This document shows, in pieces, positions 11,279 through 15,337 of a DNA stretch of 64,000 bases. Both the position numbers and the translations under genes were made by a program. The stretch lies in NCBI RefSeq assembly GCF_000755245.1, contig NZ_BBMP01000023.1:124001-188000 (forward strand). The letters run 5' to 3'. This DNA is from Halococcus sediminicola (lineage in GTDB: Archaea; Halobacteriota; Halobacteria; Halobacteriales; Halococcaceae). Numbering within the stretch: the stretch's first letter is position 1; each line of letters begins with the position of its first letter. The notes under the pieces were generated by a model. That model ran no database searches. It saw nothing but the letters and a program-made list of their open reading frames with translations, and was not told where the DNA came from.

Positions 11279-11462
11279 GCTACGATGACGAACGCCCACA
11301 TAGTTCAACCTACCTCATCACCGTCGCAATCGTTCTGGTGAGCCGGAAGTGATAGTTTTGACGTGCGCACCCTCAGCCGACGATAACCGCGAACCTGACT
11401 GTAGTACAGCTAAAGGGTGAGCGGCCCATCCGCGGTTCTCCTGATGGGCTGTACCGGTCTGC

Positions 11463-11933
11463 TTATTCTTCACTACACTTCTCTCTGAGTAGCTCCCGTC
11501 CGGCGGTATAGAGGATTACTACGCCCACGATCATTCCCCAGAGCGCCAGACCTGGCGCGGTAAGTGGACGAAGGAGATATCCGTAGAGTGGGACTGAAAA
11601 GACATACTCACCACGGATCTGCGATTCTGATATTCGCCATGAATCGGGTGGCTGCTTTTCACCTTTTGTGATGAACCCCTCTGAAGTTTCGCCGACAATT
11701 CGGTGCGTAACCGTTCTGTCTTGCACGGAAAACGTGATGATGTCGCCTTTTGTGTAATCGTTCGTTTCGTGTGTATAGACAAGACTGCCTGTTTGAATTG
11801 CTGGCTCCATACTCCCACTCAGGACGACATAGCTTCCGTAGCTTGGTAGAGGAACGAACACCAGGTGGATGATGAGTGGAACAAGAGCAATACTCACCAG
11901 TATCTCTGAACGATATTCACGGAGGCACTGCAT
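11463..11933 (-). CDS. Signal peptidase I, archaeal/SipW type (S26B)
   Basis: A 156-residue membrane protease. ATG 11933 (MQCLREYR) is preferred over an in-frame TTG at 11951. It has an N-terminal TM (about 10-30), the catalytic Ser box LSGSMEPAI near residue 38, and the second box (TKGDIITF and TVTHRIVG, near 65-80), where archaeal/SipW-type enzymes carry His instead of the bacterial Lys. A C-terminal TM follows near 130. It would cleave Sec-type signals outside the membrane. It directly follows two TasA/camelysin-like genes on the same strand, so it is probably their dedicated peptidase, as SipW is for TasA in Bacillus. Confidence 0.88.
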   Translation of the reverse strand: MQCLREYRSEILVSIALVPLIIHLVFVPLPSYGSYVVLSGSMEPAIQTGSLVYTHETNDYTKGDIITFSVQDRTVTHRIVGETSEGFITKGEKQPPDSWRISESQIRGEYVFSVPLYGYLLRPLTAPGLALWGMIVGVVILYTAGRELLREKCSEE

Positions 11934-11989
11934 GCATACGTTTCCGACCAAATTACTATCTCAAGGTGAGTTTACTGCAATGGAAGTGT

Positions 11990-12679
11990 CTATCGATACT
12001 GGATCGTGTTCTCAACCGATACGTCCTGGTCTTCGAATGACTGAGCAGAGCCAACGACCGAAACCGTGATCTCGATCCCGTCATCCGGGCGAACTCTCCC
12101 GAAGATACCACGATTTCCGTTGATCTCGATTCGAAGGTCGGTGCTCTCTCCAGCCTCTATCCCTGCAAGCGACGTGAGTCTCTCGCGTGTGCTCCCAAGC
12201 GTGAGGTCTTCGACATCGTACCGACCATTCCCGTTCTCGTCAGCGATGACGGATCCAAGCAAGTTCCTGCCGCCGTAGGTAAACTCACTCACCCGCATCG
12301 AACGTACCGTCAAGTTAGCATTTCCACCTCGTCCAAATCGGCCGTCGTTTTCCACGTATGAGACCGCCACGCCGATCTCATCACAGTCGACTGTCGATGC
12401 AGTATTATCGATGCGAAGCGTGTTTCCAGCTGGTGTTGAACTGAATAGGCGTCCATGATCAGTGTCCCGCCAGGTTCTCGTGACCTCGTCTTCTTGAAGT
12501 TCATCGGTCGTACTGCCGCGCGTGGCAGGGCCGACCTCACTGAGTTTGAGATCGAGTACACCTCCCTCAATCGGTCCCTGTTCAGATGATTCGGTATCGA
12601 TGAACTGCGCCGCCACTGGAGGAACCGCGAGTAGTGCTGCCGTTGAGAGGCCGGAGGCGAGGACCGTACGGCGGTTCAT
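11990..12679 (-). CDS. TasA/camelysin-like secreted protein (second paralogue)
   Basis: A 229-residue protein started at ATG 12679 (MNRRTVLASG). The signal peptide ends near AAQFIDTES, which resembles the SipW-dependent cleavage context (short aromatic followed by D/S). The mature beta-rich domain begins with a GVLDLKLSEVGP strand, as in the TasA/CalY family. Near residue 155 is DENGNGRYDVEDL, an EF-hand or dockerin-like calcium loop also found in the neighbour at 12693. It lies between that paralogue (13-base gap) and the signal peptidase, probably in one transcript. It may form or cap an extracellular fibre. Confidence 0.78.
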   Translation of the reverse strand: MNRRTVLASGLSTAALLAVPPVAAQFIDTESSEQGPIEGGVLDLKLSEVGPATRGSTTDELQEDEVTRTWRDTDHGRLFSSTPAGNTLRIDNTASTVDCDEIGVAVSYVENDGRFGRGGNANLTVRSMRVSEFTYGGRNLLGSVIADENGNGRYDVEDLTLGSTRERLTSLAGIEAGESTDLRIEINGNRGIFGRVRPDDGIEITVSVVGSAQSFEDQDVSVENTIQYR

Positions 12680-12692
12680 CAGGTTGATTGCG

Positions 12693-13346
12693 TTACTGAC
12701 TCGCGTCTTGGTTGAGCGTGAAGTCGAGTGTGATATCGACACCATCAGCCATGATGTCTTCGTCAGTGCCAGTGAACGACCCATCGTTGTCGTTAGCTAT
12801 CTGAACACCAAGCATGAGTTCGGTGGTGTCAGAGCCACCGGCACTGGGTGCAGTGAGATTGTCGGTGCTCCCGGCCTGACTCTGCACGTCTGCGAGGTCA
12901 ACGATGCCGTTGCCGTTCTGATCGGACACGTTGCCGAGCAGATCTGTCCCGTCGTAGGTGAAGTCAGTGACTTCGATCATTGCGGCAGTCTCCTGGGCAT
13001 TCAACTCGGTACTCAAATCTGCATCAGCGGGTTCGTCCTGTATGTCATTTTCGTTGAAGTTGAGATCGACCTCGACGTGGTCTGCTTCGGTTGAGCCGAC
13101 GTTTTGCAGGGCGAACGTAGCGCTGTCAGTGTCACCGGGTTGGGCGTTGGTGAGCGAGATAGTGTCACTAGCGCTCTCGTCAATGCTCAAATCAAGCGTC
13201 CCCGCTTCGACTGTGTTTCCGGGAGCGGATTCCGAATCAGTCCAAAACGAGTACGTTCCCATCGCGAGAAGGATGGCACCAATGACGACGAGCGCAACGA
13301 GCGCGAATTTTCTCTTCCCGCCAAAGAGGGTTTCTTTAATCCTCAT
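12693..13346 (-). CDS. TasA/camelysin-like secreted protein (major paralogue)
   Basis: A 217-residue protein started at ATG 13346. A basic n-region (MRIKETLFGGKRKF) is followed by a hydrophobic core and a GTYSFWTDSES junction that is characteristic of SipW-dependent signals. The mature domain starts GTLDLSIDES and carries the TasA-like AQPGDTDSATFALQNVGS stretch, then DQNGNGIVDLADV, a calcium-loop-like motif. In bacteria such proteins polymerise into biofilm fibres. It is the first gene of the run and has a TATA-like element 21-34 bases upstream of the ATG, suiting a leaderless, strongly expressed surface protein. Confidence 0.82.
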   Translation of the reverse strand: MRIKETLFGGKRKFALVALVVIGAILLAMGTYSFWTDSESAPGNTVEAGTLDLSIDESASDTISLTNAQPGDTDSATFALQNVGSTEADHVEVDLNFNENDIQDEPADADLSTELNAQETAAMIEVTDFTYDGTDLLGNVSDQNGNGIVDLADVQSQAGSTDNLTAPSAGGSDTTELMLGVQIANDNDGSFTGTDEDIMADGVDITLDFTLNQDASQ

Positions 13347-13366
13347 AGACCATACTATATCGCATT

Positions 13367-13380
13367 TACATTTAAATTTT
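13367..13380 (-). promoter_or_regulatory. TATA-like promoter element of the TasA-like gene
   Basis: An AT-rich block (minus strand AAAATTTAAATGTA) lies 21-34 bases upstream of the ATG at 13346, the position expected for a TATA box serving a leaderless archaeal transcript. The flanks are of average composition, so the block stands out. No mapped start is available. Confidence 0.45.
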
Positions 13381-13571
13381 CCTGATAGAGAGTACCATAG
13401 CTTTTCATGAGATAGGTTGGAGGACATACTAGTACGAACAAGTCGATAAGAGGGTGTCAATCTGCATCGTGAACTCTTCACAAGAGCGAATCAGCTATAT
13501 GAATTCATCAATAGTCCTTGCTGAGGATATTCTCTAACTCAGTCACGCAGATACCAATAGAGACCGGCTAC

Positions 13572-15194
13572 TCAGCACTCCTGCTGGAGGGTAGCTGTAA
13601 GTTCCCCGAGTTGATCCGCTACCTCAATTACGCCCTCAATATTCTCTACGCTAGCATGATTCATGAAGAGACCAAAAGCCAGTTTGCGTCCGTCCACAGC
13701 GTCGATATAGCCAGCAAGCGTTTGGGCTGTGAGATAGATACGGTTGTTGAGGAGGTCCGGTCCTGCGACGGTCCCGGTCTTCGCAAATACATGGCCTGCG
13801 GCTGGGCTATCTGGGGCAACTTCAGCTAACGAGCCGTCTACCCCCAGAATTGGCAACGTCTGAGCGAACGCTTCCGCGGAAGGTGTGCCATGCCAATATG
13901 AGAGCAAAGAAACCAACGCTTGGGGCGTGACGTGGTCTTCGCGCGCTCCCCCTCGGCCATCCGACAGTGACACCTCATTGGTGTCGATACCGACATTCGT
14001 GAGGAAGTCATAGATGACTGGGAAACCATCGCGGCAATCATTGCTTCCTGCTTCGACAGCCAAGAGACAGACCATGAGATTAGCACCGAGATTGTGGCTC
14101 GTCTTGAGAATTAATTCCGCATATTCGGAAAACGGGAGCGAAACGTGTTCAGCGACCTTCATAGAAGACTGGTATCCGGAACCCGAAAGGTCAGTGGTCG
14201 GGTTTGGTCCAGTAGGCGGTGCTGCTACTTCGACACCGGCTTCTTCAAGGGCCTCAATCAGCGCAGTACGGGCGAACGCAGCCGGATCGTCGACCTGATA
14301 AACTTGCAAGAGAGGGTCTTCTCCAGCAGCGATTTGACCGCTCACGTAGATCTCACCCTCTTGCGGGCTGGAAACTTCAACAGTGGTTTCCTGATCATTC
14401 CCGACAGTTGCAACGTCAGCCCAGATATGATATGCTGCTGTCTCAGGCCGGTGAGAGACCTCCGCTCGCTGTCCCGGCTCCGTCGGCGTCATGAGTACGT
14501 CAACGAGATTGTCATTGATGAGGATCGGTGAGAGGGGTGTTTCCGGATCCAGAATATCGTTGTCCTCGAACAATCGTGCATCGATAAGAACATCTCCCTC
14601 AACTCGTGTAATGCCCGTTTTTCGCACTTGTGCTGCGAGGTCGTCTACTCCTGCCAACGGATTAGTCTCGGTGAGAGTGGCTCCGGGGATCGCGTTGGCG
14701 TACGTATGATCAATCGATGTATATGCGATTTTCCCATTTGAGAGTGTCCGCCCACCCATCGTAAGGTCTCCTGATGCAACGAGGACGAGATCGCCGTTGA
14801 GCCGGCCATCGGTCACCGCTCCTGTTCGGTAGACCGGCGTCGTGAAACGATGGTCGGCGCCGAACGTGTCCCATGCGGCCGAAATGGGGACGAGTTTGGC
14901 GGTAGAGCCTGGGGCAAAAAATTGGTCCTGGTTGAGTGAGTGGACCACGTCACCGCTTTCAGGATCTATCACCAGTAATCCCCACGTTGCGTGATCGTAC
15001 ATCCCAGAACCCTTAAGAGAATTGAGTTTATGCTCGATTGACGAGCAGCCCGCCGATGAATTAGATGAAGAGTCATTCCAGTTTGTGGAGTTCCCCTCTG
15101 CTTTGGTCGTCCCGCTGTGGCCCATACTGACCCCTAATAATCCAAGCGCTGAACCCTTCAGCATCGTTCGGCGATCGTAGTTCACGAGATTCAT
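13572..15194 (-). CDS. Serine D-Ala-D-Ala carboxypeptidase homologue (peptidase S13, PBP4/DacB-like)
   Basis: A 540-residue protein with a Tat-type signal (DRRTMLKGSALGLLG, residues 8-22). All three penicilloyl-serine transferase motifs are visible: SxxK as GSTAKL near residue 93, SxN as SHN near residue 367, and KTG as AKTGTV near residue 465. The large insert between motifs 1 and 2 contains the S13-type DLVLVASGDLTMGG segment. In bacteria this family trims peptidoglycan cross-links, but haloarchaea have no murein, so the substrate here must differ (a surface peptide, ester or amide) or the gene is a transferred enzyme. It follows the TasA-like genes on the same strand, after a 225-base gap. 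Confidence 0.87.
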   Translation of the reverse strand: MNLVNYDRRTMLKGSALGLLGVSMGHSGTTKAEGNSTNWNDSSSNSSAGCSSIEHKLNSLKGSGMYDHATWGLLVIDPESGDVVHSLNQDQFFAPGSTAKLVPISAAWDTFGADHRFTTPVYRTGAVTDGRLNGDLVLVASGDLTMGGRTLSNGKIAYTSIDHTYANAIPGATLTETNPLAGVDDLAAQVRKTGITRVEGDVLIDARLFEDNDILDPETPLSPILINDNLVDVLMTPTEPGQRAEVSHRPETAAYHIWADVATVGNDQETTVEVSSPQEGEIYVSGQIAAGEDPLLQVYQVDDPAAFARTALIEALEEAGVEVAAPPTGPNPTTDLSGSGYQSSMKVAEHVSLPFSEYAELILKTSHNLGANLMVCLLAVEAGSNDCRDGFPVIYDFLTNVGIDTNEVSLSDGRGGAREDHVTPQALVSLLSYWHGTPSAEAFAQTLPILGVDGSLAEVAPDSPAAGHVFAKTGTVAGPDLLNNRIYLTAQTLAGYIDAVDGRKLAFGLFMNHASVENIEGVIEVADQLGELTATLQQEC

Positions 15195-15208
15195 ATGTTT
15201 CAGAAGTA

Positions 15209-15221
15209 GATAAACTTATTT
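15209..15221 (-). promoter_or_regulatory. Candidate TATA element of the S13 peptidase gene
   Basis: The minus strand reads AAATAAGTTTATC 15-27 bases upstream of the ATG at 15194. It is the most AT-rich block in the space shared with the divergent DUF1616 gene. The position suits a leaderless haloarchaeal promoter; it is not verified. Confidence 0.35.
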
Positions 15222-15337
15222 CTAACTACATTACTGTCAACCGTCCCGTAACGACCGTGCAGCGGTTGGTAGTGAGCGTTCGAACAAGCGAACGATGAAA
15301 GCAAGCCCTTTAGGTGCCGTTAGCGAAATCCGGGAGT

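Follow-up and report, generated by a model that had tools for sequence, protein, structure and literature searches.

The analyzed window, a stretch of 64,000 nucleotides of the genome of Halococcus sediminicola, contains on the minus strand (13346–11463) two genes of secreted proteins, P0001 and P0002, followed by the gene P0003, encoding a signal peptidase of the ER/archaeal (Ser-His) type. Gene P0001 (12693..13346) encodes the TasA-family secreted subunit A of 217 aa, the likely major fibre subunit; P0002 (11990..12679) encodes the divergent TasA-like secreted subunit B of 229 aa, proposed as an initiating or terminal subunit; P0003 (11463..11933) encodes a SipW-like signal peptidase I of 156 aa, counted from the ATG. 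The SipW-type signal peptide of P0001 (13248..13346, minus strand) is predicted from the alignment with TasA to be cleaved at GTYS/FWTD, with tryptophan at P2', and that of P0002 (12608..12679, minus strand), from its sequence and alignment, at PVAA/QFID, with phenylalanine at P2'. Both proteins contain an EF-hand-like loop, namely, DQNGNGIVDLAD in P0001 (residues 142–153; 12888..12923, minus strand) and DENGNGRYDVED in P0002 (residues 147–158; 12206..12241, minus strand). The initial annotation had listed this three-gene set, the signals GTYSFWTD and AAQFIDTE, the loops and the peptidase, and all of them were found at this place on the minus strand.

Genes P0001 and P0002 are separated by 13 nt, and P0002 and P0003 by 56 nt if P0003 starts from the ATG at 11933, which is favoured over the TTG at 11951 by alignment with the orthologue from genome G155. 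A candidate archaeal TATA box (13370..13379, minus strand), which reads AAATTTAAAT in the sense of the genes, is centred about 28 nt upstream of the ATG of P0001. In archaea, a TATA box at about this distance before the start codon is expected for leaderless transcripts, and the position of the box is consistent with a leaderless transcript of P0001.

Protein P0001 passes the models PF12389 (52.2 bits, cut-off 22.5) and TIGR04088 for the SipW-type signal (33.3 bits, cut-off 19; residues 17–51 matched), while its score with the TasA equivalog model NF046066, 31.7 bits, is far under the cut-off of 450 bits. In the PDB search, a profile of 15 haloarchaeal relatives matched solved TasA structures (5of1, E 5.5e-10; 8aur, E 6.8e-10), and the matched region includes the columns of Pro62 and Gln232; a profile of the P0001 group only matched TasA at E 2.5e-7, and archaeal ABPx (AbpX) was reached weakly by P0001-family profiles (E 0.07–0.18). 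The match to TasA argues for a TasA fold of P0001 independently of structure models (AlphaFold2 models of P0001 and P0002 from six-row alignments had pLDDT of 39.8 and 42.0). Matches of P0001 to tau in the PDB were rejected as spurious, being caused by a short VDLADVQSQAGSTDN-like stretch.

Protein P0002 passed no curated family model in Pfam and NCBIfam, including PF12389 and TIGR04088, and matched none of the TapA models there; the profile of its clade gave no match in the PDB. P0001 and P0002 are homologous, with 28% identity and E 1e-12, so the description of the two proteins as paralogous holds, but they belong to separate old clades in the tree, and a recent tandem duplication as the source of the pair was rejected for this reason. 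Of the two SipW-dependent signals originally proposed, that of P0001 is backed by TIGR04088, whereas that of P0002 matches no model and is predicted by sequence and alignment.

The signal peptidase P0003 contains the motifs SGSMEP and VTHRIV and scores 75.5 bits with TIGR02228 for archaeal signal peptidase I, above the cut-off of 51.85; the score with NF046067, the model for SipW of Bacillus, is 62.4 bits, below the cut-off of 190. P0003 is SipW-like by linkage and type and not a SipW equivalog. Residues Ser47, His83 and Asp103 (numbered from the TTG at 11951) are invariant across ten peptidases of such clusters. The host genome contains one other signal-peptidase match, weak and far off on contig C22, and no TIGR04088 protein besides P0001, so P0003 fits a dedicated role. 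An aromatic residue at P2' distinguishes SipW substrates from ordinary signal-peptidase substrates (PMC10269814).

Family assignments and operon structure thus support the SipW-TasA system proposed in the initial annotation, with a TasA-family subunit, its paralogue and a dedicated SipW-like peptidase lying in one operon, and we assign the locus with high confidence to the TasA/SipW-type cassettes.

The loops of P0001 and P0002, one DxNGNGxxDxx[DE] per protein, occupy the same alignment position and are located before a short 'LxDL' segment. According to the rules for EF-hand loops, position 1 is Asp, positions 3 and 5 are Asp or Asn, position 9 is one of D/E/S/T/N and position 12 is acidic (PMC3123361); both loops satisfy this rule at positions 1, 3, 5, 9 and 12, with Asn at 3 and 5 and Gly at 6. 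Of 57 distinct relatives of full length, 14 contain the strict pattern, compared with 0.1 on average and 2 at most over 200 shuffles; each of the 14 aligned loops maps to one and the same profile position, so that chance does not account for the loop. Its distribution on the tree requires four changes, versus 12.6 with shuffled labels. In the P0001 group, the loop is invariant at D142, N144, N146, G147 and D150 and variable at most of its remaining positions; in four P0002-type sequences, all six ligand positions are invariant, and near relatives of P0002 carry the loops DTDGDGTKTLYD and DRDGDGTKTLYD. At the level of sequence, these data support an EF-hand-like loop at a homologous position under conservation. 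Loop fragments gave no EF-hand or dockerin match in Pfam, so the loop is treated as a motif and not as a known domain; EF-hand chains appeared in the PDB search with the 15-relative profile at E 0.3–0.75, which is not significant. Binding of Ca2+ by the loops is probable, as judged from the ligand residues. Haloarchaeal clusters usually contain the loop in one subunit or in none, the present cassette and that of G155 being the only ones with a loop in each of the two subunits; the novelty claimed for the paired loop was therefore overstated, since the loop is a feature of the clade and is paired in G155 as well.

The most conserved part of the interface in TasA fibres is the proline box, to which neighbouring subunits contribute Phe29, Gln232, Phe200 and Pro62 (PMC10151520). 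In HMMER alignments (offset 29 in chain 5of1), Pro62 corresponds to P70 and Gln232 to Q213 of P0001, which thus retains W35, P70 and Q213 as equivalents of Phe29, Pro62 and Gln232. Among the same 57 family members, three of which are P0002-type, the Pro62 column is occupied by Pro in 50 proteins, the Gln232 column by Gln in 38 of the 43 rows without a gap, and the Phe29 column by an aromatic residue in most rows. In all three P0002-type rows, the equivalents of Pro and Gln are absent and the aromatic residue is kept (F26 in P0002); these proteins also have an extra conserved segment, LSEVGPATxGSTTDE..., between the first strands. Since the interface residues are kept in P0001, this subunit would be the one repeated along the fibre, while P0002, having the donor aromatic residue and missing Pro and Gln, is likelier to be a starter or end than a repeat subunit.

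We consider it moderately likely that the locus as a whole is an acquired haloarchaeal cassette of the TasA/camelysin type for an extracellular fibre. The SipW-type signals would direct the export of both P0001 and P0002, and the linked Ser-His peptidase P0003 would cut them off, leaving each protein with an aromatic P2' residue at its new N-terminus. P0001 would then polymerise by donor-strand exchange, like TasA, and P0002, able to donate a strand and fitting poorly in the middle of a fibre, would start or end it, as TapA does. One Ca2+ ion would probably be bound per loop, stiffening either a loop at the surface or a lateral contact. Formation of a fibre is probable in view of the family and interface residues; the role of P0002 as a TapA-like starter or end subunit is more tentative, with somewhat less than an even chance, and the comparison with TapA is proposed as one of analogous role, implying no homology. 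Control of assembly by calcium is doubtful. The fullest form of this reading, a two-component archaeal fibre and calcium-controlled relative of TapA-TasA, in which Ca2+ at the loops of both subunits would gate or lock donor-strand polymerisation and P0002 would be a dedicated starter or end, is less likely still.

The tapA-sipW-tasA operon of Bacillus subtilis (TasA 5OF1/8AUR) shares with the cassette a TasA-family subunit, a SipW-type signal with an aromatic residue at P2', a Ser-His signal peptidase in the operon and the equivalents of Pro62 and Gln232 in P0001. It differs in that no TapA homologue was detected in the cassette, the second subunit of which is a TasA paralogue, in the archaeal host, and in the EF-hand-like loop that takes the place of the TasA loop in P0001 and P0002. 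The sipW-tasA/calY cluster of B. cereus likewise combines two paralogous camelysins with one SipW, but the cassette has EF-hand-like loops and no CapP, and P0002 is without the interface residues. TasA and CalY of B. cereus form heterofilaments (PMC13082335, PMC10151520), and P0002 might by analogy be a second ordinary subunit co-assembling along a TasA-type fibre, with loops of structural importance only. The donor aromatic residue of P0002 and its possession of the same loop agree with co-assembly; however, the equivalents of Pro62 and Gln232, kept by most family members, are missing from all three P0002-type rows, and the extra segment between the first strands also speaks against it, so that we regard co-assembly as unlikely, though it is the alternative that survives best.

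Less probable is that the proteins do not polymerise and are secreted surface proteins, such as monomeric adhesins or S-layer-associated proteins, in which a calcium-stabilized loop would serve folding in brine. The divergence of P0002 would be compatible with this, as would the bias of Dx[DN]xDG motifs to secreted and surface proteins (PMC3123361), but the residues of the TasA subunit interface are kept in P0001. Archaeal donor-strand fibres related to TasA are represented by AbpA of Pyrobaculum and ABPx of Pyrodictium (9sj2, 9rhp), which differ from the cassette proteins in their distant sequence and in that the DxNGNG loop is not visible in the aligned part. Cannulae of Pyrodictium are reported (doi 10.1038/s41467-025-64120-8) as an extracellular polymer formed by donor-strand complementation with calcium; their ion dependence is described along with a CanA protein lacking any DxDxDG motif (PMC12326000). 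CanA has no sequence match in the cassette, and cannulae serve as an archaeal precedent for the combination of calcium and donor-strand assembly.

The cassette is located in an insert of about 3.94 kb (11336..15276) between divergent genes of DUF58 and DUF1616 proteins. In the same-genus relative G069, the flanks are collinear, with 86% and 85% identity, and a gap of 163 bp separates the two genes. The G+C content of the insert is 49–57%, versus about 62% on the side of the DUF58 gene. The tree unites P0001, with full support (100/100), with four proteins of g28 (Haladaptatus) genomes and separates it from homologues in the host's own family. Because the insert is absent from G069, is low in G+C and carries a P0001 that groups with Haladaptatus proteins, horizontal acquisition of the cassette is the best reading. 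Family scans identified two loci in genome contigs and none in three viral-contig scans, and a viral origin has no support.

Comparison of the junction loci (L101, L102 and L104) showed that the region corresponding to 11308–15314 is empty in G069, contains a PIN-like toxin-antitoxin pair (recognized by eye) in G053 and an aldehyde-dehydrogenase-like gene (also by eye) in G061. Since two other relatives carry different genes there, the DUF58–DUF1616 junction is an insertion hot spot. The insert also contains, at 13572–15194 on the minus strand, a gene for a protein similar to D-Ala-D-Ala carboxypeptidases of the S13 family (PF02113, 209 bits), in an archaeon; the protein has SxxK, SxN and KTG motifs and a Tat-like signal, and its sole match among 17 other genomes of the family was weak (25%).

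Several observations would suit a cassette that arrived recently and is silent in its host or undergoing decay there: the close relative G069 has no insert, G053 and G061 contain other genes at this site, the G+C content is low, and the P0002-type copy of G189 has an in-frame stop. We consider this quite improbable: all three reading frames are intact, and a TATA-like box is present at the expected distance. The same order of three genes is moreover retained in G155, with identities of about 59, 44 and 58% and an overlap of 4 nt between the last two genes, and this conservation of order at 44–59% identity indicates that both copies of the cassette are held under constraint. The name of PF12389, 'Camelysin metallo-endopeptidase', would suggest that the proteins are camelysin-like metallo-endopeptidases, which can practically be dismissed, as P0001 and P0002 contain a single His each and no HExxH motif, and the solved structures that were matched belong to fibre subunits.

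Under the preferred reading of an acquired fibre cassette, the set consists of only two subunits and one peptidase, and the repeating subunit and the one that starts the fibre can be tentatively told apart by sequence. Calcium binding by the loops, if real, would tie an EF-hand-type switch to donor-strand fibres; since the calcium-type loop is absent from TasA of Bacillus, calcium may help to build or stiffen the archaeal fibre.

The TasA-family profile matched 157 of 392 genomes of Halobacteriales, and a peptidase gene is present in the cluster at 17 of 20 inspected family loci, so TasA-SipW systems are ordinary in haloarchaea. The annotation 'TasA family protein' already exists in public records (Haladaptatus caseinilyticus), while no study of haloarchaeal TasA-type clusters was found among the open papers that were searched. 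SipW-TasA is thus not new for haloarchaea, and it is this particular cassette that is rare: close relatives of P0003 were found in 4 of 392 genomes, including the host, and orthologues of P0002 only in three genomes of g28 (Haladaptatus). P0002-type genes also stand alone on Haladaptatus plasmids (L068 and L069), in H. caseinilyticus (not annotated) and in H. halobius (with an in-frame stop), which shows that P0002 does not always occur together with P0001.

Other haloarchaeal clusters, for example those of Haloarcula mannanilytica (L058) and Haladaptatus caseinilyticus, share with the cassette the family and a signal peptidase in the cluster. They differ in that they mostly have one or no loop-bearing subunit, often have Tat-motif signals and often contain an extra protein in which a membrane segment is combined with a Thr/Pro-rich linker; the cassette, unlike many of them, is without an anchor-type protein. 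Many haloarchaeal TasA-like proteins (L042, L046, L044, L038 and others) carry a Tat-type RRRLLGG motif directly before the SipW-type cleavage region, which suggests Tat export of donor-strand subunits in those haloarchaea; the motif was not found in P0001. Proteins with an N-terminal membrane segment, a Thr/Pro-rich linker and a C-terminal TasA-like domain are encoded at L046:4165-5010, L058:7096-8037 and L043:4143-5129, and could possibly be membrane anchors or fibre bases. A large TasA-like cluster includes a gene (L051:198-2039) for a protein of 613 aa with a SipW-type signal and, by eye, a von Willebrand A-like stretch. At L059:85-3148, on a contig labelled 'bacterium isolate AM_0466', two TasA-like genes and two genes of SipW-like peptidases stand in a row, and one of the TasA-like proteins contains DTNNDGDYDDAG at a different position.
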